Origin: a virus
Reading direction: 5' to 3' (one strand)
DNA length: 64,000 nucleotides
IMG/VR virus record: IMGVR_UViG_3300037010_000365
Location: 17,962-81,961 of that record
Both the position numbers and the translations under genes were made by a program. This document shows, in pieces, positions 21,314 to 63,698 of the stretch. The number at the start of each line of letters is the position of its first letter. The first letter of the stretch is position 1. The notes beneath the pieces were generated by a model. The model did not search any database and had not been told where the DNA came from. It saw nothing but the letters and a program-made list of their open reading frames with translations.

Positions 21314-22363
21314 ATGAGTCTATTATCAAAATTCAAAGCAAACAAAAACATTTCAGAATTCATTCTTTCTGAAGAAAATCAAGTAGACAAAGGATTTATC
21401 TCAACCGGGTGTATGTCGTTAAACATTCTATTTTCTGGCAGATTGGATGGCGGTATTCCTATTGGTAAAATTAGCCAGGTTGCTGCTCCATCTGCCCTAG
21501 GTAAAAGCTTTATTGGGATGAAAGTAGCTAAGAACGCCCAAAAGAAAGGTCTGGAAGTAGTTTATATCGATACAGAGTTTGCGTTTGACTTTGGATTTGC
21601 TGAATCTATCGGTCTCGACAACGATAAGCTTATGGTTATTCAAGATAATCAAATCGAAAGTGTACAGAAAACTATTATGCAAATGCTAGAAGGTATTGAC
21701 AAGAAAGAACGTGATCGTTTGCTTATTCTTATCGATTCTTGGGGTGGTTTGGTAACGAGCAAGACTACTACAGACGCGCTAGATGGTAAAGACGTTAGCG
21801 ATATGACTGTTAGTAAGAAAAAGAATATGCTGTCTCGATTATTAATGGGCGGACCTACAGTGTTTGTCATCAACCAGGTGTACGATACATTTGACCAGTA
21901 TAATCCTTTAGCAATTGCAGGCGGTCGCGGATTATATTTTGCTTCAAGCTCTATTGTATTAGGTTCGTCAAAAGCTAGAGAAAAAGATTCAGACGGCGAT
22001 ATTTCAGGCGCTATCGTAACAGCTGTAACAAAAAAATCAAGATCTTCAAAAGAAAATACGAAATTAAAGTACCTAATTCGATATGACGGTGGTATTCATC
22101 CAGTGTATGGTATTTTAGAAGATGCTATGGAGTGTGGTGTTGTTGAGAAGCCATCTATGGGTTGGTACACAAGACCTGACGTAGAAAATGATAGAAAATG
22201 GCGTGAGAAGGAAGTATGGAATACCTGGGAAGTGTTTTGGGCTCCTATTTTAAAATCAGCCAAGTTTAAAAAGTTCATTGAAGACAAATATAGCTTTAAG
22301 GAATCAAAGATTATTGATGAGAACTTTGATTTTGACGATTCTTCAACTGATAGAGAAGAGTAA
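21314..22363 (+). CDS. uvsX: Recombinase UvsX
   Basis: 349 residues (T4 UvsX is 391). RecA/Rad51-type strand exchange protein. Walker A APSALGKS (about 57-64), Walker B LLILIDSWG, the FVINQVYDT strand, and the UvsX-specific GGRGLYFAS and WYTRPD...WREKEVWNT segments. No intein is present here, although UvsX-type genes are common intein hosts. Followed by a strong terminator. Confidence 0.95.
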   Translation: MSLLSKFKANKNISEFILSEENQVDKGFISTGCMSLNILFSGRLDGGIPIGKISQVAAPSALGKSFIGMKVAKNAQKKGLEVVYIDTEFAFDFGFAESIGLDNDKLMVIQDNQIESVQKTIMQMLEGIDKKERDRLLILIDSWGGLVTSKTTTDALDGKDVSDMTVSKKKNMLSRLLMGGPTVFVINQVYDTFDQYNPLAIAGGRGLYFASSSIVLGSSKAREKDSDGDISGAIVTAVTKKSRSSKENTKLKYLIRYDGGIHPVYGILEDAMECGVVEKPSMGWYTRPDVENDRKWREKEVWNTWEVFWAPILKSAKFKKFIEDKYSFKESKIIDENFDFDDSSTDREE

Positions 22364-32320: not shown

Positions 32321-32397
32321 GGTGATTTAGCTCAGTTGGTTAGAGCGTCGGATTCATAACCCGAAGGTCGATAGTTCAATTCTATCATTCACCACCA
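32321..32397 (+). tRNA. tRNA-Met (CAT)
   Basis: 77 nt: acceptor GGTGATT/ATTCACC, D-arm AGCTCAGTTGGTTAGAGC, anticodon loop TTCATAA, T-arm GATAG-TTCAATT-CTATC, discriminator A and encoded CCA. Elongator type. Confidence 0.93.
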
Positions 32398-32498
32398 GAC
32401 GTGTTGTCCGCTTGTAGAAATCTGATAATTTCTACACAGACACCTTTCAGTCATGATTGAATGGCTACGTTGGTGATCTATACGTTAATCACTTTAAT

Positions 32499-32583
32499 GC
32501 GAGTGTAGGAAAATTGGTAACCCCAGTGGATTGTAAATCCGTCGCCCATGGCACTGTTAGTTCGACTCTAACCACTCGCACCA
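32499..32583 (+). tRNA. tRNA-Tyr (GTA)
   Basis: 85 nt: acceptor GCGAGTG/CACTCGC, anticodon loop TTGTAAA, long variable arm as in bacterial class II tRNAs, T-arm GTTAG-TTCGACT-CTAAC, encoded CCA. Confidence 0.92.
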
Positions 32584-32940
32584 CTTTGGAAATATAGTAT
32601 TTGCCTTGACGTGGCGCCAAAGCTGAGTAGTTCTTTGAACGAAACTAAATGATACTCTTTAGATCTTTAACAGTTAGATTGAAAAATCACGTTATGTAGT
32701 ATTACGGTAGAGGCTGATATCCGATTAATAGAAGTTCAATTCTTCTTGGAACGACAGAATTTAAGAGAACATATAATGTGAATGTTAATACGACAAAACT
32801 GTTCCCCTGTTTATTTTAGGAAAAAGTGAAAATACTTCTTTACTTTTCTGATGTGTTAGTTTATAATGAACTAAATAAAGGTTGAGGATCTCAACTTCAT
32901 ATAAATTTTAGGTAATAACGTGACGTTGGTTCGAATCCAA
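32584..32940 (+). other. Gene-free spacer with tRNA relic and third promoter copy
   Basis: Contains a tRNA-like relic near 32690-32755 (TAGTATTACGGTAGAG, a T-arm GAAG-TTCAATT-CTTC) that does not fold as a whole tRNA. It also holds the third copy of the repeat-A promoter (TTTACTTTT, TATAAT at 32862-32867). No gene seen. Confidence 0.5.
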
Positions 32941-32954
32941 CTCAGTCATTTATT

Positions 32955-33029
32955 TGGCAAGTAGCTCAGTGGTAGAGCAGTTGGCTGTTAACCAATTGGT
33001 CGCAGGTTCGAATCCTGCCTTGCCAGCCA
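32955..33029 (+). tRNA. tRNA-Asn (GTT)
   Basis: 75 nt: acceptor TGGCAAG/CTTGCCA, D-arm AGCTCAGTGGTAGAGC, anticodon loop CTGTTAA, T-arm GCAGG-TTCGAAT-CCTGC, discriminator G and encoded CCA. Confidence 0.93.
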
Positions 33030-33034
33030 ATTAT

Positions 33035-33109
33035 GCACCTATCGTCTAGCGGTTGGGACTCATGGTTTTCATCCATGCAACAGCAGTTCGATTCTGCTTA
33101 GGTGTACCA
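33035..33109 (+). tRNA. tRNA-Glu (TTC)
   Basis: 75 nt: acceptor GCACCTA/TAGGTGT, anticodon stem-loop CATGG-TTTTCAT-CCATG, T-arm AGCAG-TTCGATT-CTGCT, encoded CCA. Only 5 nt after tRNA-Asn. Confidence 0.92.
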
Positions 33110-33386
33110 AACATCGGTATCAGCTACCTACAGCTGCGAGACCTGACTTGAGACTCAGGGTAGGGAGTAGTCTCCGAATAGATTACCTGATTGTGGAACA
33201 GTTATCACCATACGCTGTAGTATGCAAGCGTTACCAAGTATACCAAGAGACTGCTCTTGTTAATAAGAGTCTCATGTTAGATACATTGGTGATGCTTTGT
33301 AGTCTAACTTTCTCGAGAGATAGTGATATACCTTTTCGTGGTGCTCGAGATAAGTAGGAAATTTCCGAAACTAAATATCATTCAAA

Positions 33387-33460
33387 CGGTCTGTAGTATA
33401 GAGGTAATACCCTAGTTTTGGGAACTAGAATCGAATGTTCAATTCATTCCAGACCGACCA
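33387..33460 (+). tRNA. tRNA-Pro (TGG)
   Basis: 74 nt: acceptor CGGTCTG/CAGACCG, D-arm AGTATAGAGGTAATAC, anticodon stem-loop CTAGT-TTTGGGA-ACTAG, T-arm GAATG-TTCAATT-CATTC, discriminator A and CCA. Confidence 0.92.
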
Positions 33461-36726: not shown

Positions 36727-36804
36727 GCATCAGTGGCGGAGAGGTCCATCGCACCGGATTGCAAATCCGAACAACCGCCAGTTCGAATCTGGCCTGATGC
36801 TCCA
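36727..36804 (+). tRNA. tRNA-Cys (GCA)
   Basis: 78 nt: acceptor GCATCAG/CTGATGC, anticodon stem-loop with TTGCAAA, T-arm GCCAG-TTCGAAT-CTGGC, discriminator T and encoded CCA. Isolated from the main tRNA block. Confidence 0.9.
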
Positions 36805-37908: not shown

Positions 37909-39198
37909 ATGTCTAAAATTAAAGTAGCTATTGTAGGTGTTGGTAACTGTGCCAAATCATTAGTAGAAGGAATTCAATACTATAACGAAAATCCAAATGA
38001 TACTGTCGGATTAATGTATCCTGATATTGGCGGCTATAAATCTAGCGATATCGAATTTGTTGCTGGTTTTGACGTTGATATTCGTAAAGTTAATAAACCT
38101 CTAATTGAAGCTTTGCGAGCTAGTCCAAATTGTGCTATGGATCACGTTATTGAAATTACTGATAGCGAAATGACATCTTGTGTAACAAAGGGCGCCATGG
38201 TTTATTCAGGTCCAACCATGGATGGCGTTGCTCCATACATGCTAGACTTTCCAGAAGAAGTATCTTTTCGTATCGGCGCTATTCCAGCAGAACCATTCGA
38301 TCGAGTTGTCGAATTATTGAAATACCACAAAGTCGATGTAGTTATTAATTATCTACCAGTCGGGTCTGAAGAAGCTTCTAAGTTTTATATTGACGCAGCT
38401 ATTAAAGCAAAATGCCACGTTGTTAACTGTATTCCTACATTAATTTCAACAGCTGATACTATGGAATATGAACAAAAGTTTATTGATGCTGGGTTGACTA
38501 TTGTTGGTTCTGATATGCGTTCTGCTTGGGGTGCTAGCCGATTATCTGAAGTGCTACAGGGTGCTATGCTAGATGCTGGTCTGCTAGTAACACAACATAT
38601 CCAAATGAATATGGCAGCAGGCACTACGCAAGGTCAAGAAACCATTAGAACTGGCCGTACGGCAAACACTGATTTTTTAAACATGATTAGCAAGGATCGT
38701 TTACACAGCAAACATGTGTCGAAGGAAAATGTCTTGCGTGGCCAAAATTCCGTTCGAGACGTTGACACTGCTGGCATGACATTATATGCAGGTCCTTCGT
38801 TAACGGTTTTACAAAAGCCAGGTGGCCAATACGTTGGTTCAGATAATAAAATTGCTAATTTGGATCTAGTTGCTTACGGTTTCGGTGGAGCTCGATACGA
38901 ATTAACTGCACGATTATCTGTACAAGACAGTCCTAATTCTGGCGGTGTAGTTGTATCAGCTATTCGTTTCTGTAAAGTAGCTAGTGAAATGGGTATTGTT
39001 GGATTTTTACGTGGACCTAGCGCTTATACCCAAAAGACACCGCCATTACAGCTAAGCTCATCTGATTCAAAATTTGAATGTGACGCTTTGTCTCGTCGTG
39101 TGTTAACATCGTTAACAGAACCTCAACTTAAGATTAATAACCCAGTCGCAACGGATTTGCCATATACGTTCCAATCAAGTAAAACTGATTATGAATAA
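37909..39198 (+). CDS. ino1: myo-Inositol-1-phosphate synthase (Ino1)
   Basis: 429 residues. Converts glucose-6-phosphate to inositol-1-phosphate using NAD. The N terminus IKVAIVGVGNCAKSLVEGIQYY is the Rossmann start of the bacterial Ino1 family. Also VYSGPTMDGVAPYM, VDVVINYLPVGSEEASKFY, IVGSDMRSAWGAS and the C-terminal VQDSPNSGGVVVSAIRFCK with GPSAYTQKTPP. Full length for the bacterial/archaeal type. It stands at the head of a run of genes leading to hydroxymethyl-dCMP synthesis, so its product may feed a DNA or capsid modification. Strong ribosome site AAGGGAG. Confidence 0.88.
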   Translation: MSKIKVAIVGVGNCAKSLVEGIQYYNENPNDTVGLMYPDIGGYKSSDIEFVAGFDVDIRKVNKPLIEALRASPNCAMDHVIEITDSEMTSCVTKGAMVYSGPTMDGVAPYMLDFPEEVSFRIGAIPAEPFDRVVELLKYHKVDVVINYLPVGSEEASKFYIDAAIKAKCHVVNCIPTLISTADTMEYEQKFIDAGLTIVGSDMRSAWGASRLSEVLQGAMLDAGLLVTQHIQMNMAAGTTQGQETIRTGRTANTDFLNMISKDRLHSKHVSKENVLRGQNSVRDVDTAGMTLYAGPSLTVLQKPGGQYVGSDNKIANLDLVAYGFGGARYELTARLSVQDSPNSGGVVVSAIRFCKVASEMGIVGFLRGPSAYTQKTPPLQLSSSDSKFECDALSRRVLTSLTEPQLKINNPVATDLPYTFQSSKTDYE

Positions 39199-39217
39199 TT
39201 GAAGTGGTTTAACAATA

Positions 39218-39607
39218 ATGAATCAAATTTATTCATACGACATTGATGGAGTTATTAATTTAGATACTGGACGAATTGGTATTCGTCCAGGGTCTGTTAA
39301 TGACGTTATTATTTCTGGTAGGTCTACTGACGAACTTACTGACACTATAAAGTTTCTTCGAGATAACGGCATTGGTAACTACGTTTATCTTAATCCTATT
39401 CCATTCGAAGAAAAGACACGTGTTTTATCAGGTATTCATAAAGGTAATACTATTTTAGCTTTGCGTGAATTAGGGTTGAATATCGTGACACATTATGAAG
39501 ATGATGTAGTTCAAATTGAGCAGATAATGAAGATTGTCCCAGATTTAATAATTATTCACGTCAATCATAATGGAATTGTAAATTATGAAAACGTTAAAAG
39601 AGGTTAA
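39218..39607 (+). CDS. HAD-like phosphatase
   Basis: 129 residues. Begins IYSYDIDGVINLDTG: the D-x-D-G-V motif I of HAD phosphatases near residues 7-11. ISGRSTDEL is motif II (S/T) and the Lys and C-terminal acidic motif (HYEDDVVQIEQI) follow. A short, cap-less HAD. Placed right after ino1, it could dephosphorylate inositol-1-phosphate or a nucleotide, but substrate is unknown. Confidence 0.7.
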   Translation: MNQIYSYDIDGVINLDTGRIGIRPGSVNDVIISGRSTDELTDTIKFLRDNGIGNYVYLNPIPFEEKTRVLSGIHKGNTILALRELGLNIVTHYEDDVVQIEQIMKIVPDLIIIHVNHNGIVNYENVKRG

Positions 39608-39610
39608 ATA

Positions 39611-40663
39611 ATGAATTACGTATATGGAATCTTAGGTTCTATACCTAAACTTAAATTCTCTCATAATTCAGCTTATGCAAAAATATGGGCAAACGTTAGT
39701 AAATCTTGTATTACTGATGATTTAGATTCTGTTACATCTTCAGACAATGTTTTGCTGTATTTTGGTGTAGGGTTTAATGGTAAATTATTAAACCTTTTTG
39801 ACGGTGCTAATTCTAAGTTGTTTAACAGACTTAATGCTTTCTTATCTTGTCAAGCTGAATTTACTAGTATTGATTTTGATATGCCAGACATTGGAGCTAT
39901 GCTAACAATTAGAATTGGTAATAATACTACTGATCCGAGATTTACTAAAGAGTTTCTTGATAAAATTAGTGATAAGTGTAAAACTGTTAAGCAAATTAAC
40001 ATGAAAGATTTTATTAATGACACTATTGTTATCGGTGATTCACATAGTCTTTCAATGACTCCGCTAAATGCACCAGTAATTTATATGACAGGCAAAACAA
40101 TGTTTGGTATTACTAAATCTGGATTATCAGAAATCGTTGATTTGAATAATATCAATAAATTAACTTTATCGTTTGGTAGTATCGATATTCGACATCATTT
40201 ATTCAGACAGACAAATCCTAATGTAGCTGCTACTAAACTGGTTACAGATTATCTGAATATGATTACTTTACTGTTAGACTCGCATCTGCAGATTAATATT
40301 GAATTATGTTCTACTGTTCCTGTTGAATTCGAAGGTAGAAAATTGCCAAAAACTGGCTATTATAAAGGTACCCCATTTGCTGGTAACAGACAACAGCGAT
40401 TAGATGTAACGTTGATGATTAATAACATGCTTAGCGAATTTGCAAATATGACAAATAGAGTTTCGTACATGTCATTTCCATTGGAATGGTATGAAATGGA
40501 TCCTAAACTGTTTGCTGATACTATCATGGAAAGACCTAAATCTGTTCATATCGGTTACCCGTTTTATAGACTAAATGATTTTGGTAAAGTAGAGCAGTTC
40601 AACGATGAAGAACCAGAGAATAATACAGAAAAACCTATGTTTTCTGGTCCTACTTTATTCTGA
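39611..40663 (+). CDS. SGNH/GDSL-hydrolase-like protein with C-terminal SGPTLF tail
   Basis: 350 residues. DTIVIGDSHSLSM (near 140) is a GDS motif (block I), LTLSFGSIDIRHHLF resembles block III (G-x-x-D), and HIGYPFY near 315 could carry the catalytic His of block V. So a serine esterase or transferase fold is likely. The last residues, KPMFSGPTLF, are shared with the next gene (EIYSGPTLF) and resemble PTLF in the clamp-binding tail of gp55, so it may be tethered to the sliding clamp. Substrate unknown. Confidence 0.5.
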   Translation: MNYVYGILGSIPKLKFSHNSAYAKIWANVSKSCITDDLDSVTSSDNVLLYFGVGFNGKLLNLFDGANSKLFNRLNAFLSCQAEFTSIDFDMPDIGAMLTIRIGNNTTDPRFTKEFLDKISDKCKTVKQINMKDFINDTIVIGDSHSLSMTPLNAPVIYMTGKTMFGITKSGLSEIVDLNNINKLTLSFGSIDIRHHLFRQTNPNVAATKLVTDYLNMITLLLDSHLQINIELCSTVPVEFEGRKLPKTGYYKGTPFAGNRQQRLDVTLMINNMLSEFANMTNRVSYMSFPLEWYEMDPKLFADTIMERPKSVHIGYPFYRLNDFGKVEQFNDEEPENNTEKPMFSGPTLF

Positions 40664-40852
40664 TACTTATTATGGAAATACCATCGAATACACCGTTGAA
40701 TTTAACCCATGTTAATACTTAATAATTTTGGATTGCTATCATCAAGCGCTCCAAAATTATTCTAAACGGTTACAAAATTCTATTAACTAAAATGAGGGGG
40801 ATATTAAATCATTAAAACACCAAATATTATTTCACATCCAGATTTTCCAATT

Positions 40853-42115
40853 ATGATGGACCATTGTTTTGTTGGCAAACCTCAAGAACCTGATTTTGAT
40901 TATACACCAGATTCTTGGTATGATTCTTCTAAAGGGTTCGATAAAAATATCAATTATTCAAAATTAAGAGTGATTACACCAAAAGTTTCTAAAATATTAT
41001 GGGAATCCGTTGACAAGGATTTTCTGCATGAAATGCGTATGTTTACACATAATGTTCAAAGAACATGGGAAATCCATTATGGTGTAAGACCAGTTGAACA
41101 TTATATTGCACCAAATCCTGCTCTTGCCCTTGACGTTGAATATTTCGGGTTTTGGGTAACCGCAGACGACCGTTTAAGATATATTGCTGAAAATATAACA
41201 ACTAATCCAGACTTACCATTAATAGACCAGATTGGCAATGGTTTAGCATCACATTTTTACGGAGCAAGAAACGTACATAAAGCTATGAATGGCATTGATG
41301 ATCCTAAAACAGCGTTAGTAAACTACAGTAAATTAGCAGAAGAACAAATTGAGTTTAAGACGTCTGGTATTATTGGGGAATACACCTTGCATATGAGATC
41401 CTTTCTTGAAGAACAGAAGAAGAAAGGTGAAAAACTCTGGGGAACTACTGAGCTACACACGTCTATCCAAACTGCTGGGCGTCGCTGGTTAAACGAGTGG
41501 TATAACGATGATAGACTACATCAAAATAAAGGTTCATCAAATAACGTTAATGAATGGATTGCTTCGTTTAAGAATTCTGGTTTGCTAGATAAAATGGTAG
41601 CTAATTCTGGATTAAAGTCAATGTGTGATATTCTTGGGTCTGAATGGGGTATCGGCGATTATTACCGGTTTCACGGTGGTTCTGATTTATCATTATGTCC
41701 TGAATTAAACGCATATATTGATGAACGATATGTGGTACCTGGTCCTGGAGCAACATGGACATTAAAAAATCTATATCCAGATTTATCAACTAAAGACGTT
41801 TCTCTTGCTGATAGAGTTATTTGGTTTAGAGAAAACCAATCATATTTGCTAGGTCTTCCTGAGATTAATCCGTTTTTTCATAAACTGGAAGTCAATGGCA
41901 TTAACATTTTTCCTGAACCGATTAATGAAATCAAAACAACTCAAGCTGAAGTATGTCATTGCCAGTTCGGAATTTATGTAGATTTGCGAGACAATCCACA
42001 TAAAATCGATAAACGAAAAGTAGCAAGAAACGATAATGCTACTTGCGCGATTGATAGCGTGCAATCACCGAATAAACGAAAAGCAGAAATTTATTCTGGA
42101 CCTACTCTATTTTAA
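40853..42115 (+). CDS. Putative DNA-base hypermodification enzyme with SGPTLF tail
   Basis: 420 residues from ATG 40853. The frame is open upstream with a strong GAGGGGGAT site at 40793-40801 and would give IKTPNIISHPDFPIM, so the real start may be a non-ATG codon at 40808-40811. Mostly helical. The YVVPGPGATWTL stretch and the AEVCHCQFGIYVDLRD segment recall the glycosylase-like alpha-glutamyl/putrescinyl-thymine pyrophosphorylase families of modified-DNA phages, but similarity is weak. Ends EIYSGPTLF like its neighbour. Context (kinase, hydroxymethylase, dCTPase follow) supports a role on DNA bases. Confidence 0.4.
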   Translation: MMDHCFVGKPQEPDFDYTPDSWYDSSKGFDKNINYSKLRVITPKVSKILWESVDKDFLHEMRMFTHNVQRTWEIHYGVRPVEHYIAPNPALALDVEYFGFWVTADDRLRYIAENITTNPDLPLIDQIGNGLASHFYGARNVHKAMNGIDDPKTALVNYSKLAEEQIEFKTSGIIGEYTLHMRSFLEEQKKKGEKLWGTTELHTSIQTAGRRWLNEWYNDDRLHQNKGSSNNVNEWIASFKNSGLLDKMVANSGLKSMCDILGSEWGIGDYYRFHGGSDLSLCPELNAYIDERYVVPGPGATWTLKNLYPDLSTKDVSLADRVIWFRENQSYLLGLPEINPFFHKLEVNGINIFPEPINEIKTTQAEVCHCQFGIYVDLRDNPHKIDKRKVARNDNATCAIDSVQSPNKRKAEIYSGPTLF

Positions 42116-42128
42116 TAAAAGGAATTAA

Positions 42129-42623
42129 ATGATAGTTATTATTGAAGGACCTGATCGGGTCGGTAAAGATTCACTATTATCTCAAGGGGTTTTTACAGAG
42201 TACGAACAGATTCATTGCGGATCACCAAAGCTAAAAACCAAAGATTATTACTATGGATATTATACTGGTTTATATCAATCATTAAATCAATTGAATACCC
42301 GTGTTGTATTAAATCGAAGTTCAATAGGTGAATATGTTTATGGACATTTATATCGCAACAACGAATATGAATTGTTAGATATAGTAGATCCTCATCAAAT
42401 TATTGCAAATCATGAAGTTAGAATAATCACATTAATCGATTCAGCTGAAACTTTATTGTCTAGAGAAGACGGTGAATCATTTGGAAAAACGTTACAAGCA
42501 AAAAAAGATGAAATTGACCGGTTTATTAAAGTCACCGAATTTTTTAATGGGTCAGTTATTAATTGCGCAGGTAAAACTTCTAATGAAGTATACGAAGAAG
42601 TTGTAGGAGTTATGTATGGATAG
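42129..42623 (+). CDS. Deoxynucleoside monophosphate kinase (thymidylate-kinase-like)
   Basis: 164 residues. P-loop IIEGPDRVGKDS at residues 4-15, VLNRSSIGEYVYGHLYR (the D/N-R-S-x-x-G-E-x-V-Y-G motif of thymidylate kinases, near 59-75) and a short lid. The gene overlaps the hydroxymethylase gene by 8 nt, so it likely phosphorylates hydroxymethyl-dCMP, the job of T4 gp1, although the sequence is more TMP-kinase-like. Confidence 0.72.
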   Translation: MIVIIEGPDRVGKDSLLSQGVFTEYEQIHCGSPKLKTKDYYYGYYTGLYQSLNQLNTRVVLNRSSIGEYVYGHLYRNNEYELLDIVDPHQIIANHEVRIITLIDSAETLLSREDGESFGKTLQAKKDEIDRFIKVTEFFNGSVINCAGKTSNEVYEEVVGVMYG

Positions 42624-43308
42624 AGTAAGCGATATTAGAAATCAGTTGGTAAACCAATATAACACAGGCGATTTTGTTATTGATAAGACTGGTGCAAAAA
42701 TGGTAGAACTTATCGGCGCTACATTTATCGCTGATGAAGATTGGATTATTAGAAAACCAAATATGGAATATGTTAAGCATGAGTTAGATTGGTACGAATC
42801 ACAAAGCTTGAATGTTTATGATATACCTGGAGTTGTTCCAGAAATTTGGAAACAGATCGCAGACATGTATGGTAACATTAACTCTAATTATGGTTGGTGT
42901 ATCTATTCTGATGAAAATTCAGCTCAATTCCAGAAATGCTTAAACGAATTACTAGCTAATAAATTTAGTCGACGATCAACTATGATTTATAATAGACCGT
43001 CTATGCATGAAGACTATAAAGAAAATGGTAAAAATGATTTTATTTGCACCTACGCTAATCAGTTTTTTATTAGAGACAACAAATTAGTTTCTCATTACAT
43101 AATGCGGTCAAATGACTCGGTATTTGGGTATTGTAATGATTATCAGTGGGCTAAATATGTACAGCAACATATGCTTTCTGAATTGCTATTAGACTATCCA
43201 GGTCTTGAGTTAGGCGATATCATATGGACAGCATCAAGTCTTCATGTATATGAACGACATTTTAAATTTATTGAAGAATATAAAGGAACACAAAATGGCA
43301 GTATTTAA
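42616..43308 (+). CDS. 42: dCMP hydroxymethylase (thymidylate synthase fold, gp42-like)
   Basis: 230 residues (T4 gp42 is 246). Thymidylate synthase superfamily: FICTYANQFFIRDNKL has the nucleophile Cys144 and Q-F. IMRSNDSVFGYCND (163-175 region) is the phosphate-binding R-S-x-D motif. LHVYERHF is the late H-x-Y motif. Where thymidylate synthase has the Asn that selects dUMP (G-x-P-F-N), this protein has Asp (G-Y-C-N-D), as in T4 dCMP hydroxymethylase. So dCMP is the predicted substrate and DNA probably contains 5-hydroxymethylcytosine or a derivative. Confidence 0.8.
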   Translation: MDRVSDIRNQLVNQYNTGDFVIDKTGAKMVELIGATFIADEDWIIRKPNMEYVKHELDWYESQSLNVYDIPGVVPEIWKQIADMYGNINSNYGWCIYSDENSAQFQKCLNELLANKFSRRSTMIYNRPSMHEDYKENGKNDFICTYANQFFIRDNKLVSHYIMRSNDSVFGYCNDYQWAKYVQQHMLSELLLDYPGLELGDIIWTASSLHVYERHFKFIEEYKGTQNGSI

Positions 43309-43831
43309 TCAATGCTCACACTTAGTAAATGAAGAATCATTAGCGCAAGTTCGTAACGCGGTGAACTTGTCTAAACATGTAGGTAATAACCCATTTCAAT
43401 TAGTGCTAGACACTCAATTGAAATTGCAAAAAGAATTAGCTGCTAAGTTACCAGAAAATGGTAACATTGATCCTGAAAATATGGCCGATTGGGCTACTTG
43501 CGGTCAGATGGTAGATTATATGCGTGAACAGAAAGATTCACTAGACGACGAGTTCCGTGAATTGCTTACATCATTCGGTGGGATGTCTAACGGTGAAAAA
43601 TCAGCTACATCAGTCTGGAAGAAGTGGAAAAAAGATAACCAGTCTAGACGTAACACTTTATTTTCTGAATTGTCAGAAGAAGATAAATTAGAAGTTTATA
43701 TGGAATTAATCGATGCTGTTCATTTCTTTGCTAATAAAATCAATGCATTAGGTTTAACAGCTGACGATGTTTGTGAGTTGTATCTCATTAAAAATGCTGA
43801 AAATTTTAATAGGTATAACGCTGGTTATTAA
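43295..43831 (+). CDS. 56: dCTPase/dUTPase (all-alpha NTP pyrophosphatase, gp56-like)
   Basis: 178 residues from ATG 43295, with AAGGAACAC upstream, overlapping the hydroxymethylase gene. All-helical dimeric dUTPase/MazG-type fold: MADWATCGQMVDYMREQKDSLDDEFRELL and EEDKLEVYMELIDAVHFFANKINALG, followed by LIKNAENFNRYNAGY. The E-x-x-D and K-N-x-x-N-R-x-x-G-Y pattern is diagnostic. In T4 gp56 removes dCTP and dUTP so that only modified C enters DNA, and the neighbouring genes make the same logic likely. Confidence 0.8.
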   Translation: MAVFNQCSHLVNEESLAQVRNAVNLSKHVGNNPFQLVLDTQLKLQKELAAKLPENGNIDPENMADWATCGQMVDYMREQKDSLDDEFRELLTSFGGMSNGEKSATSVWKKWKKDNQSRRNTLFSELSEEDKLEVYMELIDAVHFFANKINALGLTADDVCELYLIKNAENFNRYNAGY

Positions 43832-45522: not shown

Positions 45523-45720
45523 ATGGAAAATAATCAAGATAGATTAACACTAGATTGCATTTGTAATCTGTTTATTGATAATTCAGTAGTGTTTATTGAT
45601 AAGTTTGATATCAAAACCAAAGAGGATGTCTTAACTCTTGTGTTAAGACATCCAGATATCGCAACAAATTATATCTGGTGCGGATTAAAACATATAGTAA
45701 ACGGAATACAAGATGTGTAA
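45523..45720 (+). CDS. Unknown small protein
   Basis: 65 residues from ATG 45523 (AAAGGTG upstream). Overlaps the phosphatase gene by 8 nt. Not recognised. A GTTTACAAA sequence upstream at 45494 resembles the -35 half of an early promoter but lacks a good -10. Confidence 0.5.
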   Translation: MENNQDRLTLDCICNLFIDNSVVFIDKFDIKTKEDVLTLVLRHPDIATNYIWCGLKHIVNGIQDV

Positions 45721-46177
45721 TATTCAAAACTTATCAATGCTTCAATACTTAGAACGGAAATACACAGCTGATCGTTGTGTTATGATTCGTATCTTCGACA
45801 ATACGTTTGATAAAGATTTATACCCAACTGCTGTATTCGATGGTAGAGATGAGTTAGTTCGAGTGTATACGTTTGACGATGCTGACCGCGGTGAACCGAA
45901 TACTCTTACTTTGGAAACGGCCAGCGATATTATCGCTGATTTAAAATATGCGAAGGAATTGAACAAAGACGTTCGTGTTCATTGCCTAGCAGGCTTATCA
46001 AGATCGGGCGCAGTTACTCAGTTTGCAATAGACTATCTTGGATTTGAAGATACTGGTAGACCCAGAGTACCTAACTCTCATGTGTATCAAATGCTTGTTG
46101 AGTCTTATACAGGGTTGACTATTGAACAACAAGTTATTAAAGCCTTTGAAAATTATATGCAAGGAGAAGATGTATGA
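45713..46177 (+). CDS. Dual-specificity / tyrosine protein phosphatase
   Basis: 154 residues. Active-site loop VHCLAGLSRSGAV (about 89-101) is the H-C-x-x-G-x-x-R-S signature with the nucleophile Cys and Arg. An upstream acidic loop FDDADRG could supply the general acid. It may act on host or phage phosphoproteins or on RNA 5' ends, as some phosphatases of this fold do, here near the RNA-repair genes. Confidence 0.8.
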   Translation: MCNIQNLSMLQYLERKYTADRCVMIRIFDNTFDKDLYPTAVFDGRDELVRVYTFDDADRGEPNTLTLETASDIIADLKYAKELNKDVRVHCLAGLSRSGAVTQFAIDYLGFEDTGRPRVPNSHVYQMLVESYTGLTIEQQVIKAFENYMQGEDV

Positions 46178-53718: not shown

Positions 53719-55341
53719 ATGAAAACAATTCACGTTAGAAAACGCTCAGGTGAATTAGAGCTTCGCGACGATGATAAAATCAATAAGCTGGTACAGTTTG
53801 CTTGTGAAGGTGTAAATGATGTTTCAGCGTCAATGGTTGTTATTCAATCTAAAGTGAAGTTTTATGATGGTATTCCAACTGATGATATTCACGAAGCATT
53901 AATTAAAACCGCAGCTGATTTAATCACAGTAGCAACCCCAAACTATCAACAAGTTGCGGCTAAGCTAATTTCTTATAAATTACGAAAAATTGCATATCGT
54001 ACTTATACACCGCCTACGTTGTTAGATCATATCAATCGTGTGGTTAGTTTAGGATTCTACGATAAGGCTATTCTAGAACTATACACCGAAGACGAAATTA
54101 ATAAGCTAGATAAGGTTATTAATCACGGGAATGACGATTTGTTTACATACGCGGCTATGAAACAATTTGAAGATAAGTATCTCGTTAGAAATCGTTCAAC
54201 CGGTGAAGTACTAGAAACCCCTCAAATGGCTTACATTCTAGTAGCTATGACTCTATTTTCCATGGAAGACGCTAGTTGCAGAATGGAATTGGTTAAAGAG
54301 TATTATAAAGAAATCTCAACAGGTATCAAGTCAACAATCAGTTTACCTACGCCAATTAGCGCAGGAGTTAGAACACCTACACGCCAATTCAGTTCATGCG
54401 TAGTTTTAAAAGCAGGTGATTCAATTGACTCCTTGAATGCTACAACATCAGCTATTGTGAAGTACGTTTCTAAACGAGCTGGCATTGGCGTTGATTTTTC
54501 AGCTGTACGTCCTAGTGGATCCCCAATTCGTGGGGGTGAAGCAACACATACAGGAGCCATTCCGTTTATTAAGTATATCCAAGGTGGTGTTAAGAGCAGT
54601 TCACAAGGTGCTATTAGAGCAGGCGCTGCTACGCTTTACATACCAGTATGGCATCGTGAAATCGAAGACTTAATTGTTATTAAAAATAACAAAGGCACTG
54701 AAGATAACCGAGCTAGAGGGTTAGACTACGCTATTCAATTAAACGGACACTTCTATAAGAAAGCAATGGCTCGCGAAGAATATTGTCTATTCAATCCTAA
54801 CGAACATCACGACTTATATGAAGCATTCTTTAACGATCAAGATTTGTACAGCACCCTGTACGATAAACTATCGAAGAAGAAAGGTGTTAAGAAAGTAGAT
54901 GCATTCACATTGTTGACTAATATCATCACTGAAAGAGCAAGCACAGGTCGTATCTATATTATGAACGTTGACCATGTGAATAAACAAACTTCACATAAAT
55001 CAACAATTTATAGTTCAAATCTTTGCTTATCTGGTGAAACCATAGTTACCATTAAACAAGACGGTGTTGCTAATCAAGTATCAATGAAAGAATTGGATGA
55101 AATTTTCACAAATCATAAAAATATTATGATTAAGTCGTATGACGAAAATACGGATAGCGTAGTATGGACATTGGTAGAAGCTTCAGCAATGACATCTGTG
55201 TCAGCTAAGGTTGTGAAAGTAACTGATTCGTCAAGCGGCCAATCCATAATTTGTACGCCTGACCATGAAGTTTATACCTCAAACCGTGGATACGTTAAAG
55301 CTGGTAATTTATTAAGCGATGATAAATTAGTTTTATGCTAA
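53719..55341 (+). CDS. nrdA: Ribonucleotide reductase large subunit NrdA, N-part fused to split-intein N-half
   Basis: 540 residues. Residues 1-435 are class Ia NrdA: N-terminal ATP-cone (VRKRSGELELRDDDKI), QFSSCVVL with the redox Cys equivalent to E. coli Cys225, GIGVDFSAVRPSGSPIRG and RGLDYAIQLN. After SSNL the next residue should be the thiyl-radical Cys, but an intein N-half starts instead: CLSGETIVTIKQDG ... SIICTPDHEVYTSNRG ... DDKLVLC, 105 residues, then stop. The rest of NrdA is encoded beyond an endonuclease gene. Only protein trans-splicing can give whole NrdA. Confidence 0.93.
   Translation: MKTIHVRKRSGELELRDDDKINKLVQFACEGVNDVSASMVVIQSKVKFYDGIPTDDIHEALIKTAADLITVATPNYQQVAAKLISYKLRKIAYRTYTPPTLLDHINRVVSLGFYDKAILELYTEDEINKLDKVINHGNDDLFTYAAMKQFEDKYLVRNRSTGEVLETPQMAYILVAMTLFSMEDASCRMELVKEYYKEISTGIKSTISLPTPISAGVRTPTRQFSSCVVLKAGDSIDSLNATTSAIVKYVSKRAGIGVDFSAVRPSGSPIRGGEATHTGAIPFIKYIQGGVKSSSQGAIRAGAATLYIPVWHREIEDLIVIKNNKGTEDNRARGLDYAIQLNGHFYKKAMAREEYCLFNPNEHHDLYEAFFNDQDLYSTLYDKLSKKKGVKKVDAFTLLTNIITERASTGRIYIMNVDHVNKQTSHKSTIYSSNLCLSGETIVTIKQDGVANQVSMKELDEIFTNHKNIMIKSYDENTDSVVWTLVEASAMTSVSAKVVKVTDSSSGQSIICTPDHEVYTSNRGYVKAGNLLSDDKLVLC
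55024..55338 (+). other. Split-intein N-half in NrdA
   Basis: Codons for 105 residues from Cys1 (55024-55026) to the last Cys before TAA. Contains block A (CLSGETIV), block B with T-P-D-H and the Y-T-S-N-R-G-Y-V-K-A-G-N-L block. Length matches known natural split inteins, where the break lies between blocks B and F. Confidence 0.92.
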
Positions 55342-55347
55342 GAGATT

Positions 55348-55383
55348 ACTCCGCTCATTAAATACTATTTTAATGAGCGGAGT
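55348..55383. promoter_or_regulatory. 15-bp hairpin covering the endonuclease ribosome site
   Basis: ACTCCGCTCATTAAA ... TTTAATGAGCGGAGT, perfect 15-bp stem with a 6-nt loop. The GGAG at 55379-55382, the only Shine-Dalgarno for ATG 55393 (10 nt away), is locked in the 3' arm. Could block translation of the endonuclease from long transcripts or act as a terminator-like structure. Confidence 0.7.
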
Positions 55384-55392
55384 CCTCTATCA

Positions 55393-56352
55393 ATGAACTA
55401 TGAAAGACTGTATAATATTTTTATTGATTATTGTAGAGTCACACCGCCGACACAGCGGATTGAGCGTAGAAATAAACATGATGAGAGATTATTTCAAGAT
55501 CATTTATACCTTGAAAAGCATCATATTATACCTAGACATAACGGTGGAAGAGATACAGATGAAAACCTTGTGGTATTACTACCAGAAGAACATTATCTCG
55601 CGCATTTGATAAGGTTTAAAGCTTACAACGATAGAAATGATTTTTTAGCAATTAGATTCATGGTTAATGGATATAACAATAGCGAAAGAAAGTTGCTAAT
55701 ACCTAAAAAGGTAACATCAAAAATTATAGGTAGATTTAAACAAAAGATTTATTATTTTAGGAAGAAAAACACATGGCATACTGATGATGGTATACAACGT
55801 ATATCTAGAGCTAGGACTGGAAAGGTATCAGTAGTTGATTCAATAACAAAAGAAGTAATTGGTTCAATAGATAGAAATCATCCTAATATCATTTCTGGAA
55901 AATGGGTACACCATACTAAAGGTATGCTTAGTGCAATTTCGATAGAAACAGGTAAAACTGTTAGACTCACGACATCAGAGTACAGAAATAATAAAGAGTT
56001 GTATAAACCATTGCTGGATACTAGCGGCGAAGCCAATCAGAATTTTTCTGGGTTTAGCGATGATGATCTTATTAATTTATATTATGAATTTTGTGGTAAA
56101 CTAATTTCGCTAGGGTCATCAATTATTCCATCGTACTCAACGTCAATACGCTATCATAGATCAATTGGGGTTTATGTGCCTATTACTTATACTAAATTTA
56201 GGTTTAACGGTAATTATGACCAATGCGTTCGTGATATGCATGACGAAATGTCTAAAAAATATAAGCTTCCACTTATGAAAATTAGGAGTAATAAAGACAT
56301 AAAATATATAAATGATTTAATCAGGAGATTAAAATTAAATGATAACAATTGA
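55393..56352 (+). CDS. HNH homing endonuclease inside the nrdA break
   Basis: 319 residues. HNH domain at about 41-75: LEKHHIIPRHNGGRDTDENL and LLPEEHYLAHLIRF, giving the H-H, N and H of the beta-beta-alpha-metal site. The C-terminal half has repeated DNA-recognition-like segments (GKVSVVDSITKEVIGSIDRN, then GKTVRLTTSEYRNNKELY, as in NUMOD-type modules). AT-rich compared with nrdA. The gene overlaps the start of the NrdA C-part by 14 nt. It probably cuts unfractured nrdA of related phages at the insertion site. Confidence 0.88.
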   Translation: MNYERLYNIFIDYCRVTPPTQRIERRNKHDERLFQDHLYLEKHHIIPRHNGGRDTDENLVVLLPEEHYLAHLIRFKAYNDRNDFLAIRFMVNGYNNSERKLLIPKKVTSKIIGRFKQKIYYFRKKNTWHTDDGIQRISRARTGKVSVVDSITKEVIGSIDRNHPNIISGKWVHHTKGMLSAISIETGKTVRLTTSEYRNNKELYKPLLDTSGEANQNFSGFSDDDLINLYYEFCGKLISLGSSIIPSYSTSIRYHRSIGVYVPITYTKFRFNGNYDQCVRDMHDEMSKKYKLPLMKIRSNKDIKYINDLIRRLKLNDNN

Positions 56353-57454
56353 ATATTTAGATTATGAGATACCAGTATATGATATTACTGTAGCAGATAC
56401 TCATAATTTTTTCGCTAATGGTATTTTAGTGCATAACTGCCTAGAAATTGCCGCTCCTACAGCTGACCTAACTGAGTTTAGTAATTTACGTACTGAAGTT
56501 GCAAAAGATACCGGTTTATATTCAGATGACATGCCAATGGAACAGTTTAGAACTCGTTTTGGCGAGATTAATCTTTGTACGTTATCTGCTATTAATTGGG
56601 GTAATATTAAGAAGCCAGGGGACTTTGAACGAGTTTGTCATCTAGCACTCAGAGCGTTGGATAACTTAATTACATACCAAGATTATCCGATGATTGCAGC
56701 CCACGTACCTGCCATTAATCGACGTAACCTTGGTGTGGGTATTATCAACTTAGCGCACTTCTTAGCAACTCATAACGTTAAGTACGGTGAAGAAAAGGCA
56801 TTAGAGTTGGTTGATACATACGCTGAAGCAATGTATTACTATCTGATGAAAGCCAACGTACAATTAGCTAAAGAACGGGGACCTTGCGGCTGGTATAAAG
56901 ACACTCATTACTCAGACGGTGTGTTTATACATGAATTACGAAATGCTAATGTTGACTCTCTAATTCCACATAATCCAAAAATGGATTGGGAATCTCTTAG
57001 AGCTGATATGATTAAATATGGTGTACGTAATTCACAAGTAGTAGCATTGATGCCTTCAGAGACATCAGCAGTTATTTCAAACGCTACTAATGGCATTGAA
57101 CCTCCACGGAAAATCATTACAGTAAAAACGTCAAAAGACTCTGTAATGAAACAATTGGTACCTAAACCTAAACTAAAATATGACTTATTATGGGATCAAC
57201 CAACCCCAGCAGGTTATATTAAAACGGTTGCTGTGTTACAAAAATACAATGATCAATCAATCTCGGCAAATACGTCTTATAACCCTGATAATTTCAACGG
57301 TCCTATTCCAATGACTCAACTTCTTCAGGATATTTTGATGTGTTATAAGTTTGGGGTAAAAACAGCTTACTATCATAATACAATGGTAGAAATGACTGAT
57401 GATATTACAGAAACAAAATCTGAAGAATCAGATTGTGAATCTTGCAAAATTTAA
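56339..57454 (+). CDS. nrdA: NrdA C-part fused to split-intein C-half
   Basis: 371 residues, ATG 56339 with CAGGAG upstream. Residues 1-33 are the intein C-half: MITIEYLDYEIPVYDITVADTHNFFANGILVHN in one-letter form across blocks F and G, ending His-Asn. Residue 34 is the +1 Cys, which is also the catalytic thiyl-radical Cys of NrdA (C-L-E-I, E. coli Cys439). INLCTLSAINWG carries the second redox Cys (Cys462), and LMPSETSAVISNATNGIEPP the active-site loop. C-terminal CESCKI is the redox tail. Confidence 0.94.
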   Translation: MITIEYLDYEIPVYDITVADTHNFFANGILVHNCLEIAAPTADLTEFSNLRTEVAKDTGLYSDDMPMEQFRTRFGEINLCTLSAINWGNIKKPGDFERVCHLALRALDNLITYQDYPMIAAHVPAINRRNLGVGIINLAHFLATHNVKYGEEKALELVDTYAEAMYYYLMKANVQLAKERGPCGWYKDTHYSDGVFIHELRNANVDSLIPHNPKMDWESLRADMIKYGVRNSQVVALMPSETSAVISNATNGIEPPRKIITVKTSKDSVMKQLVPKPKLKYDLLWDQPTPAGYIKTVAVLQKYNDQSISANTSYNPDNFNGPIPMTQLLQDILMCYKFGVKTAYYHNTMVEMTDDITETKSEESDCESCKI

Positions 57455-61169: not shown

Positions 61170-61796
61170 ATGAATATTAAACTACTTAAAGCGTTTAGTG
61201 TTATTAACAACGGTATTGTTATCACTGAAGGCGCTCCTCTTGTAACTATTAGTGCAGCGCTTAATATCTTAGCGGTGTCTAACGAAGTATCTGATGTATC
61301 GTTCGCAATTTATGATTTAAACAATTTTCTTAGCGTGTTGTCGTTAACTTCAGATGAACGAACAATGTCAGTAGACGGTTCAGCCATGACAATCAAAGAT
61401 GGTAAAACTGTAATGAGCTATATGGGCGGTAATCCTAAAACTATTATTACCCCGCCATCTAACATCTCGCCATTGACTGACGCCGATTACACTAATGAGT
61501 TTACACTATCAGTAACTGAGTTTAAAAAGCTCATGGATGCTTGTTCAGTGTTACAAGCTAAAAAACTTCAGTTTAATTTTGATGGAACTAATGTTACAAT
61601 TAAAACTGAAGCTGATTATGCCGATGCAAATTCGTTTGCGTGTGACTATGACACTGAAGAAGGTGTATCACGCGCAGTAAAACTCGACGTAACTACAATC
61701 AAAATTCCAGTAGCAGAGTATAAAGTATCGTTAGGCCCTAAAGCTATGCGATTCGTCTCAGACGAATGTACGTTCTACATTGTGTTAGCTATCTAA
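61170..61796 (+). CDS. 45: Sliding clamp gp45
   Basis: 208 residues (T4 gp45 is 228). Trimeric clamp that gives polymerase processivity and activates late transcription through gp55 and gp33. LLKAFSVINNGIVITEG at the N terminus, then FAIYDLNNFLSVLSL, and the C-terminal KVSLGPKAMRFVSDECTFYIVLAI fit the family. Strong AAGGAG ribosome site. Confidence 0.92.
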   Translation: MNIKLLKAFSVINNGIVITEGAPLVTISAALNILAVSNEVSDVSFAIYDLNNFLSVLSLTSDERTMSVDGSAMTIKDGKTVMSYMGGNPKTIITPPSNISPLTDADYTNEFTLSVTEFKKLMDACSVLQAKKLQFNFDGTNVTIKTEADYADANSFACDYDTEEGVSRAVKLDVTTIKIPVAEYKVSLGPKAMRFVSDECTFYIVLAI

Positions 61797-61823
61797 AACG
61801 CTATCAGCAACACCTGATTTGTC

Positions 61824-61888
61824 CTCGGTTACACTATCTAATATTAGTTAATAGATTATATATCTATGCTAGTATTAGTGTAACCGAG
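61824..61888. promoter_or_regulatory. Long hairpin between gp45 and the next gene
   Basis: CTCGGTTACACTA ... TAGTGTAACCGAG with an inner hairpin ATAGATTATATATCTAT, followed by TGATTTTGATTT. The 3' end C-C-G-A-G-T-G-A-T-T resembles the CCTGAGTGATT end of the repeat copies 1 and 2. It may limit clamp versus loader expression. Confidence 0.6.
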
Positions 61889-61919
61889 TGATTTTGATTT
61901 AATCTAAAGGAATAGGAAA

Positions 61920-62342
61920 ATGTTTAACGTTAAAATTCTCAAACCACCACGAAAAATAGAAGAAGCCTTATCACGAATGGGTGTTTCATCAGATAACGCT
62001 AATGTTTTGTTTACTAGCGTTGTGTTAATTCATAATAAACAAACTAATGTTTCATATATTGCTCATTTCAAAGAAGCATTGGCATTAATTCATCAAACAC
62101 CGAATTTTGTCATGGATAAAGAATCAGAAGCTATTCTTAATAATGTCGTAATCATGTTATCTAATTGGGGATTAATTTCAATAGAAAATCACCAACTAGC
62201 ATTTAACAATGAATATAAAGTCAAAGTTATCAAAAAGCTTGACTTAGAAGGTGATAATCCATGGGTAGTTCAACATAAGTTTAAGATGACATTACCTAAA
62301 TTACAAAGATTAATCGAATTAATAGGAAATAAAAATGACTGA
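61920..62342 (+). CDS. Unknown protein between clamp and clamp loader
   Basis: 140 residues. Helical (KIEEALSRMGVSSDNANVLFTSVVLIHNKQTN, ending FKMTLPKLQRLIELIGNKND). Not recognised. T4 has no gene between 45 and 44. Overlaps gene 44 by 8 nt, so translation is coupled to the loader. Confidence 0.6.
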   Translation: MFNVKILKPPRKIEEALSRMGVSSDNANVLFTSVVLIHNKQTNVSYIAHFKEALALIHQTPNFVMDKESEAILNNVVIMLSNWGLISIENHQLAFNNEYKVKVIKKLDLEGDNPWVVQHKFKMTLPKLQRLIELIGNKND

Positions 62343-63273
62343 TATTTCACAAGATCAAACAAATCCAATTTGGGCGTTGCGATATCGACCTAACAAAGTA
62401 TCTGAGCTGATTTTACCTAAGCGTATTAAAGATCAAATTGAGGACGCTGTTAAAGGAGAATCAAGTCACTTATTGTTATCTGGCGATCCTGGGCTAGGTA
62501 AAACAACAGCAGCCAAAGCTATTGCTAACGATATGAACGCGTCTACTATGTTCATTAATGCTAGTTTAGAAACTGGTGTTGATGTTATTCGTGAAAAATT
62601 AACACAATTCTGCTCTACTGTTTCTGCGTTTAGCGTAAGCGATCGTAAGGTTGTTATTCTTGATGAGTTTGAAGCTGGTAGTTCTCTATTCTTTCAAGCG
62701 CTGCGTGGATTCTTAGAACAATTTAGCAAACAAGCATTGTTTATCTTTACAACCAATTATGCAAATCGAATCCCTGATCCTATCATGAGCCGTGTTAATC
62801 ACATCGTGTTCGATATTCATGCAGACGAACGTGCAGACATGATTAAACAAGCTTTTATTCGATCTACCTCTATTTTAGATTTAGAAGAAGTCGAATATGA
62901 TAGAACTTTAGTTGCTACAGTCGTTAAGAATAATTACCCTGATATGCGTGCGATTTTAACATCTTTACAACGCGGTTCAATTTCAGGTAAACTAGACTCA
63001 TCTTCTCTTATTAGTGAGAAGTCCAACTACGCTGAGTTAGTCGATATGGTAAAGGCTAAGAACTGGGCTGGTGCGCGCCAATGGGTTGCTAATACACCTG
63101 GTGTGTTTGGATATAGCGACTTTTATGAAGAGTTATCAAAACAAGTAGACAAGAAATCAGCATTGCCTGAAATTGTAGTTCTTACATCACAGTATGATTA
63201 CCGCAGCCAATTTGTTATGAATAAACAGATTACTACTGTAGCGTATCTCACAGAAGTTATGGGTGCACTGTAA
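62335..63273 (+). CDS. 44: Clamp loader large subunit gp44
   Basis: 312 residues (T4 gp44 is 319). AAA+ ATPase. WALRYRPNKVSELILP start, Walker A SGDPGLGKTT (about 50-59), Walker B VVILDEFE, sensor 1 FIFTTNYANRI with the SR-N motif IMSRVNHIVF (arginine finger SRV). Loads gp45 with gp62. TAATG coupling to gp62. Confidence 0.95.
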   Translation: MTDISQDQTNPIWALRYRPNKVSELILPKRIKDQIEDAVKGESSHLLLSGDPGLGKTTAAKAIANDMNASTMFINASLETGVDVIREKLTQFCSTVSAFSVSDRKVVILDEFEAGSSLFFQALRGFLEQFSKQALFIFTTNYANRIPDPIMSRVNHIVFDIHADERADMIKQAFIRSTSILDLEEVEYDRTLVATVVKNNYPDMRAILTSLQRGSISGKLDSSSLISEKSNYAELVDMVKAKNWAGARQWVANTPGVFGYSDFYEELSKQVDKKSALPEIVVLTSQYDYRSQFVMNKQITTVAYLTEVMGAL

Positions 63274-63698
63274 TGTCAGACGCTTTATCCCCGTTTGAGG
63301 CAATTAATGCTCTTAGTTTCGAAAAGCGTAAATTATCTGATAGTCAAATTGAAACATTAGATCACTTTATGATTAGCATGGCTTTATCGATGGGTAAAGC
63401 CACTATTTACTATTCAGACTACATTAATTACACTAACATGTCAAAGCGAATGATTCATGACTTTTTGATTAACAGCTTGCCTAAGCAAAAGATCTTTAAT
63501 AAATGGATTAAAGGCTCTGTTCAAGATGATATTGTCGAATTACTGCAAACCGTTTATAAAATCGATAAAGAAGAGGCTGAAGGGTATGTCATGTTATTAG
63601 ACGAGACTGATATCCAATATCTTAAAGATGCCTTGTTTACTGGTGGTTCTGATATTAAACCTAAACGAAAAGGGAAACCAAAAAAGAATGCAGATTGA
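63273..63698 (+). CDS. 62: Clamp loader small subunit gp62
   Basis: 141 residues (T4 gp62 is 187). SPFEAINALSFEKRKL at the N terminus, MSKRMIHDFLINSLPKQKIFNKWIK in the middle, basic C terminus (KPKRKGKPKKN). Assigned by position between gp44 and gp43 and by the helical pattern. Confidence 0.82.
   Translation: MSDALSPFEAINALSFEKRKLSDSQIETLDHFMISMALSMGKATIYYSDYINYTNMSKRMIHDFLINSLPKQKIFNKWIKGSVQDDIVELLQTVYKIDKEEAEGYVMLLDETDIQYLKDALFTGGSDIKPKRKGKPKKNAD

Follow-up and report, generated by a model that had tools for sequence, protein, structure and literature searches.

A viral gene island for hydroxymethylcytosine synthesis and its probable decoration with inositol or an inositol-derived group

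A 2010 review lists Aeromonas phages 44RR, 31 and 25 as having genes 42 and 56 but none for a glucosyltransferase, and poses as an open question whether T4-like phages with gene 42 and without glucosyltransferases (RB69 and JS98 are named) carry another group on 5-hydroxymethylcytosine (hmC) (PMC2993671). For RB69 and Thanatos the decoration is believed to be added from sugar nucleotides by glycosyltransferases (PMC12838424), and in RB69 one protein of the set contains the polynucleotide kinase phosphatase domain (PMC8056088). A published 5-hydroxymethyldeoxyuridine (5-hmdU) DNA kinase, 5-HMUDK, phosphorylates 5-hydroxymethyluracil (hmU) and not hmC (PMC6457204), and the available portion of the main text on the MetaGPA 5-carbamoyloxymethyl-cytosine pathway makes no mention of inositol (PMC8670742). 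Here we describe a seven-gene island at positions 37909-43831 of a 64,000-nucleotide stretch of viral DNA (the window), which is the right-hand 64 kb of the 81,961-base IMG/VR record IMGVR_UViG_3300037010_000365. We consider it fairly probable that this island makes hmC DNA and decorates the hmC with inositol or an inositol-derived group.

The seven open reading frames (ORFs) lie tightly packed on a single strand, and all seven that an initial annotation had drawn from the letters of the window were confirmed:

37909..39198, + strand: Ino1, inositol-3-phosphate synthase (429 amino acids; PF01658, 1gr0 and TIGR03450 matches)
39218..39607, + strand: small HAD-type phosphatase, proposed inositol-phosphate phosphatase (129 amino acids; PHROG match, DIDGV motif)
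39611..40663, + strand: SGNH-fold protein with an N-terminal alpha/beta domain (350 amino acids, C-terminal tail SGPTLF), proposed partner activating or transferring on hmC
40853..42115, + strand: helical base-recognition protein of the HMUDK_hel family (420 amino acids, tail SGPTLF), proposed hmC-DNA transferase subunit
42129..42623, + strand: P-loop kinase (164 amino acids; PHROG match only), with 5-hydroxymethyl-dCMP (hm-dCMP) as one possible substrate
42616..43308, + strand: dCMP hydroxymethylase, T4 gp42-like (230 amino acids; 1b49 match, Asp at the specificity position)
43295..43831, + strand: dCTPase/dUTPase, T4 gp56-like (42% identity to T4 gp56)

Hydroxymethylcytosine and inositol enzymes of the island

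The presence of the hmC route in the island is close to certain, judging by homology. Comparison with solved structures matched the hydroxymethylase to T4 dCMP hydroxymethylase (1b49) with an expectation value (E) of 3e-68, and to thymidylate synthases at about 1e-7. Its residue 175 is Asp where thymidylate synthases have the dUMP-selecting Asn, the replacement to which the initial annotation had drawn attention. Asp occupies this dCMP/dUMP-choosing position in 99/99 distinct aligned relatives, and the thymidylate synthase copies of record G005, 44RR, Aeromonas phage phiAS4 and Caulobacter phage Cr30 have Asn. Among 12 larger records with the helical protein, seven hold an Asp-type enzyme, the canonical thymidylate synthase aligned alongside being of the Asn type. 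The gp56-like protein, likewise recognized earlier, matches T4 gp56 over 178 amino acids at E 3e-44; its ORF opens at 43244, T4 Met1 aligns with 43295, and the latter is probably the true start.

The kinase is a more qualified case. Its PHROG thymidylate kinase match (E 6.5e-5) is confined to residues 1-18, the P-loop, and the search gave no Pfam match and a weak phage relative at best. The P-loop part of the earlier dNMP kinase call stands, and its identity as a gp1-type dNMP kinase is at most putative. Of the T4 route to hydroxymethyl-dCTP proposed in the initial annotation, the gp42-like and gp56-like steps hold by homology and the kinase step is a candidate one. Identity with the kinase of ADDT phages was also considered and rejected, as the protein does not match that P-loop kinase profile.

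Ino1 matches the Pfam family Inos-1-P_synth (PF01658) at 31.4 bits against a cut-off of 27, and its best solved relative is M. tuberculosis Ino1 (1gr0, E 1.3e-58, aligned to residues 3-386), in agreement with its first naming. Its score against TIGR03450, the NCBIfam equivalog for mycothiol INO1, is 237 bits and below the 638 cut-off, which indicates a divergent viral branch and not the actinobacterial equivalog. The HAD phosphatase, also correctly named at the outset, matches a PHROG polynucleotide kinase (E 1.2e-4) and has a DIDGV motif by eye.

The initial annotation saw no alpha- or beta-glucosyltransferase in the window, and PF09198, PF11440, PF20691 and PF00535 were in turn silent across the 81,961-base record, itself a fragment; no control genome matched PF09198 or PF11440 either, and PF09198 did match in record G009. 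That match, above the cut-off, lies in a separate ORF between the HAD and helical genes (L152:8302-9324) and not in the SGNH protein. Such an extra 340-residue ORF also occurs at L155:3353-4375; the L152 copy matches T4 beta-glucosyltransferase above the Pfam cut-off, and ORFs of this type may glucosylate the adduct. A beta-glucosyltransferase scan of viral contigs returned nothing useful.

Distribution of the gene set and genome context

The gene set is not rare and recurs in many water-dwelling viruses. Close Ino1 relatives were found in 190 viral stretches (best 80 of 190 analysed), the helical-protein profile found 316 relatives (best 80 of 316 kept, 69 of them new loci), and the SGNH profile found at least 579 (best 80 kept, 78 of them new loci). 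In the 80 ino1 loci the most frequent companion is HAD (75), followed by the helical protein (62), the SGNH protein (54) and the hydroxymethylase (47); these counts fall below 80 partly because contigs end. Where 4 kb was available on both sides, HAD was present in 21/21 loci and some DNA-modification gene in 21/21 (helical 18, SGNH 18, ADDT 2, DpdA 1).

The reciprocal search, by helical profile and without using ino1, recovered loci with ino1 in 67/69, HAD in 66/69 and SGNH in 65/69; in the two loci without ino1 the helical gene is at a contig edge. With 4 kb on both sides, all three genes were present in 23/23 loci, and the association persisted when ten contigs seen before were excluded (ino1 57/59, HAD 56/59, SGNH 56/59). 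Gene order and genomic backbone vary among these loci. This tracking, together with the reuse of Ino1 and HAD in other modification loci, lends support to the inositol-derived hmC decoration that the initial annotation had suggested. A C5 cytosine methyltransferase (PF00145, E 1.8e-16; e.g., L037:11724-12953) is also present in 35 of the 80 ino1 loci, mostly directly after the SGNH gene.

Ino1 and HAD occur in an identical 18 of 50,697 GenBank phage records, and named phages among the relatives place them beside differing modification genes. Stenotrophomonas phage Moby (Menderavirus) has the order FolE, Ino1, HAD, QueC, queuine TGT and QueE, and no thymidylate-synthase-fold gene was found in it. 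In Cr30, Ino1 is preceded by an ADDT gene (PF18724, 179 bits) and by a gene resembling TAGT, though below the cut-off (E 8.5e-4); HAD and a P-loop kinase come after it, and the sole thymidylate-synthase-fold gene is of the Asn type. Eight ADDT loci are present among the 80, seven with HAD and the P-loop kinase and none with the SGNH protein. It thus appears that several base chemistries draw on Ino1 and HAD, with a separate transferase in each. Four ADDT-type loci (L016-L018, L022) encode a 420-residue protein just after ino1 (e.g., L017:3328-4602) that has no Pfam match and appears glycosyltransferase-like by eye.

In the isolate 44RR the SGNH and helical proteins are fused into 795 residues. 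A sodium symporter gene adjoins the fusion, and among solved structures its product is most similar to a bacterial sodium/glucose cotransporter (2xq2, E 3e-103). Alongside a normal thymidylate synthase, 44RR and phiAS4 each encode a hydroxymethylase of the Asp type. We infer that one phage lineage may make its polyol while the other, represented by 44RR, would import it via the candidate symporter. In phiAS4, a single gene separates the SGNH gene from one for a UDP-galactopyranose mutase (PF03275, E 5.9e-54; L004:5754-6818), pointing to a donor of the galactofuranose type in that phage.

The record itself is, by its gene content, a fragment of a T4-like myovirus. The window encodes gp45, gp44 and gp62 at 61170-63698, UvsX at 21314, and portal, sheath and capsid proteins, the capsid protein being closest to that of Pelagibacter phage HTVC008M (48%). 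An HNH homing-endonuclease ORF (55393-56352) interrupts the gene for the large subunit of ribonucleotide reductase (53719-57454), which is left as two ORFs. A small ORF at 45713-46177 has a CxxGxxRS motif (VHCLAGLSRSG) and was judged by eye to be protein tyrosine/dual-specificity phosphatase-like. Six tRNA genes (32321-33460 and 36727-36804) comprise a cluster of five and one (Cys) just before the island.

The helical and SGNH proteins

Two proteins that the initial annotation rightly called unusual and left unexplained can now be described as HMUDK_hel-family and SGNH-fold proteins, and together they are likely the transfer machinery. The helical protein (40853-42115) matches PF18723 (HMUDK_hel) at 28 bits against a cut-off of 25, and the family was matched by 24/24 aligned relatives with E up to 0.1. 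Its structure model has a pLDDT of 84.9, and the top-ranked PDB fold is 8z2n, the phage 5-phosphomethyl-dU (5-PmdU) glycinyltransferase (PUGT) (Z 10.0, 228 residues, 4.2 A), followed by DUF2419 and helix-hairpin-helix DNA glycosylases. The helical-protein profile also matches the ADDT profile weakly. A Walker A motif was not found in the cluster of the helical/SGNH pair or in the frequent surrounding clusters, and searching PDB sequences with a profile of either protein gave nothing useful.

The SGNH protein (39611-40663; AlphaFold pLDDT 85.6) has an SGNH-hydrolase domain at about 136-324, after the N-terminal alpha/beta domain, with the fold of GDSL esterase 8ik1_B (Z 14.6, 166 residues, 3.0 A; Foldseek E 8.4e-5). 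Across 146 aligned sequences GDSH is invariant, with Ser144 in 146/146 and His313 in 145/146; we take the Ser of GDS and the His near the C-terminus to be the SGNH catalytic residues. Position 191 is Ile in 146/146, replacing the block III GxND Asn that is presumably a motif of ordinary SGNH enzymes, so the protein may not be an ordinary esterase. A single-sequence scan found nothing useful. Assignment of the N-terminal domain as a beta-glucosyltransferase domain was considered and retained as no more than a hint: T4-Gluco-transf matched 4/53 members (best E 0.035), and profile comparison with T4 beta-glucosyltransferase gave a probability of 64-66 over 43-59 columns. The residue aligned by eye with what we assume to be the catalytic Asp of the T4 enzyme is Asp in only 88/146.

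A second kind of SGNH locus was also recovered. Among the 78 SGNH-profile loci, ino1 and the helical protein occur together in 10 and are both missing from 68; in these 68, a k1 or k13 protein is present in 60 and a PALP-like pyridoxal phosphate (PLP)-dependent enzyme in 51, and in L232 the SGNH protein is fused to k1. The k1 and k13 proteins are mutually related (hhalign E 3.6e-5), no relation of either to the helical protein or ADDT was detectable, and a Pfam search with both was fruitless. Several loci (L162, L169, L172, L173 and others) hold a hydroxymethylase, dCMP deaminase, SGNH protein, PALP-like PLP enzyme and k1, sometimes with UDP-glucose dehydrogenase and GalE. The decoration in this second hmC type may be an amino acid or a sugar. 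The SGNH protein seems to take part in hmC modification generally, and the helical protein and Ino1 to mark the inositol type.

Both proteins of the window end in SGPTLF, and no other ORF within 30001-60000 ends in LF. A candidate docking partner for these tails is encoded elsewhere in the window:

61170..61796, + strand: sliding clamp, gp45-like (phrog_223, E 9.1e-35)

In the ino1-found loci, tails like that of the polymerase are carried by SGNH (47/52), helical protein (52/56), C5-methyltransferase (29/34) and DNA polymerase (24/24), and are absent or rare in hydroxymethylase (0/50), Ino1 (0/83), HAD (1/75), UvsX (0/36) and other ORFs (23/542), all counts coming from related sequences that are not independent. 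Corresponding counts in the wider sets are 33/56 for k1, 13/55 for HAD and 85/1165 for others. Most members of one clade (L093-L110) have the tail in neither protein, and those of L134 are QLSLF and TTLF, which we take to be near the bacterial clamp motif. A universal clamp tail was rejected, since it holds in the ino1-found set and not in the wider sets; the clamp-like tail may be taken as support in T4-like relatives and not as a rule. Because both proteins are tailed like the DNA polymerase in many T4-like relatives, they probably act on new DNA behind the fork.

Proposed pathway, alternatives and known systems

In the pathway we propose, the gp56-like enzyme would remove dCTP and the gp42-like enzyme would convert dCMP to hm-dCMP, as their strong homology predicts; a kinase would complete hm-dCTP, and hmC would be incorporated into DNA. 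Ino1, by homology, would convert glucose 6-phosphate to inositol phosphate, from which the associated HAD phosphatase would free inositol. The helical protein, possibly DNA-glycosylase-like in fold and related to the base-recognizing half of 5-hmdU DNA kinases, would then flip hmC out, and the helical and SGNH proteins would activate the hydroxymethyl group and join inositol to it. The bulky group would protect the DNA from host nucleases. Gene association suggests that the pair acts on DNA; the attachment of inositol to hmC, with its bond and activation, we infer. Since 5-HMUDK phosphorylates hmU and not hmC, hmC systems would need another activating step, for which the SGNH protein is a candidate.

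Several observations weigh against this pathway. The genes do not distinguish inositol from a product made from it as the transferred unit, and no inositol-activating enzyme was seen. Foldseek gave no significant match for the helical model (best E 0.79; 8z2n at E 1.5), and the fold call rests for that reason on the second structural comparison and Pfam; the fold match is modest, as a Z of 10 can occur by chance in helical models. The presence of the SGNH protein in 68/78 loci without ino1 means that it is not inositol-specific. A thymidylate-synthase-fold gene was not found in 5/12 of the larger helical-protein records, which are fragments of 40-95 kb. Tails are rarer in the wider sets (helical 16/55; SGNH 32/55 and 16/78), where at least one of the pair is tailed in 33/51 loci; the tail pattern does not match the SGPTLF of the window, and the polymerase of this virus is absent from the record. 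Finally, the co-occurrence counts include related viruses.

The alternative that survives best accepts hmC and a DNA transferase as real and takes the decoration to be something other than inositol, either because the Ino1 product is a precursor of another cyclitol or sugar or because the pair, like its relatives, attaches an amino-acid-like unit. We judge it unlikely. The SGNH loci with k1/k13 proteins and PALP-like enzymes speak in its favor, but the PALP loci lack both ino1 and the helical protein. The fold neighbor 8z2n transfers glycine, according to its structure title, and Ino1 also matches a five-membered cyclitol phosphate synthase at E 9e-31, although M. tuberculosis Ino1 is the far better match (1.3e-58). 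Extra ORFs between the HAD and helical genes in some loci, one FkbM-like by eye, also speak for it, but the genes conserved around ino1, HAD and the pair include no additional cyclitol or amino-acid enzyme.

It is very improbable that Ino1 and HAD act as auxiliary metabolic genes, providing the infected cell with inositol for lipid, osmolyte or energy use, and lie in the replication region near modification genes by chance. Some bacteria have Ino1 as a housekeeping enzyme, the Ps15 genome paper calls it presumably bacterial in origin (PMC9025141), and these T4-like loci keep a conserved gene order near UvsX and gp41; chance placement is nevertheless hard to reconcile with the near-perfect tracking of ino1 and the helical protein across varied backbones and gene orders, or with a DNA-modification gene in all full-flank ino1 loci. 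We give least credence of all to ordinary T4-like hmC with no added group and a pair active in, for example, hmC excision or counter-defense: DNA glycosylases are also among the fold matches of the helical protein and the hmC adduct is deduced from genes, but a gene for supplying a sugar-type compound accompanies the pair (Ino1 or, in 44RR, the symporter gene), and a genome-wide hmC glycosylase would presumably kill an hmC phage.

Inositol or an inositol-derived group on hmC is therefore the reading we favor. We put forward a more specific form of it tentatively, as a possibility short of probable: myo-inositol itself would be covalently bound to hmC, as the first cyclitol on DNA. Ino1 and HAD would feed at least three chemistries (hmC here, an hmU type in Cr30-like phages, where ADDT and a kinase are present, and 7-deazaguanine in Menderavirus), and the SGNH protein would be the cytosine counterpart of the 5-hmdU DNA kinase, activating hmC for displacement both in the inositol type and in an amino-acid type with the PLP enzyme. 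Inositol on DNA, if true, would add a new chemical class to the known DNA decorations. A polyol that is bulky and neutral, placed on hmC, would also offer a new means of probing hmC-directed defenses, and possibly an enzyme for DNA labelling. It would also give a concrete answer to the question on hmC groups in glucosyltransferase-free T4-like phages, as posed in the 2010 review (PMC2993671). Our literature search found no publication tying a phage inositol synthase to DNA modification; an earlier prediction in Iyer 2013 or Lee 2021 is possible.

Among known systems, 7-deazaguanine modification (DpdA, QueC, QueE) resembles the island through Moby, where Ino1 and HAD sit between FolE and QueC/TGT/QueE, and differs in the base concerned and in genes that the island lacks. 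Thymidine hypermodification (ViI, M6, phi W-14, PaMx11) shares the HMUDK_hel family, PUGT as first-ranked fold and a hydroxymethyl pyrimidine as handle, whereas the island uses a cytosine-type hydroxymethylase and Ino1 rather than amino-acid enzymes. Unlike the 5-hmdU DNA kinase, the conserved pair has no P-loop kinase domain, the P-loop kinase of the window being separate. The MetaGPA 5-carbamoyloxymethyl-cytosine pathway, as presented in the portion available (PMC8670742), likewise places an Asp-type hydroxymethylase by a dedicated hmC-modifying enzyme in environmental viruses, but that enzyme is a carbamoyltransferase, where the island has SGNH, helical and Ino1 proteins. The arabinosyl- and pentosyl-hmC phages RB69 and Thanatos are also hmC phages without T4 glucosyltransferases, and differ in that the conserved core of the island has no nucleotidyltransferase or glycosyltransferase. 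In contrast to T4 glucosyl-hmC, the 81,961-base fragment gave no glucosyltransferase match and has Ino1, HAD, SGNH and helical proteins instead, and its kinase, a putative gp1 counterpart at most, aligns with the PHROG thymidylate kinase P-loop only. The two systems are alike in having enzymes of the gp56 and gp42 kinds with an identical specificity residue, in the predicted synthesis of hmC as a nucleotide and, presumably, in a decoration added after DNA synthesis.

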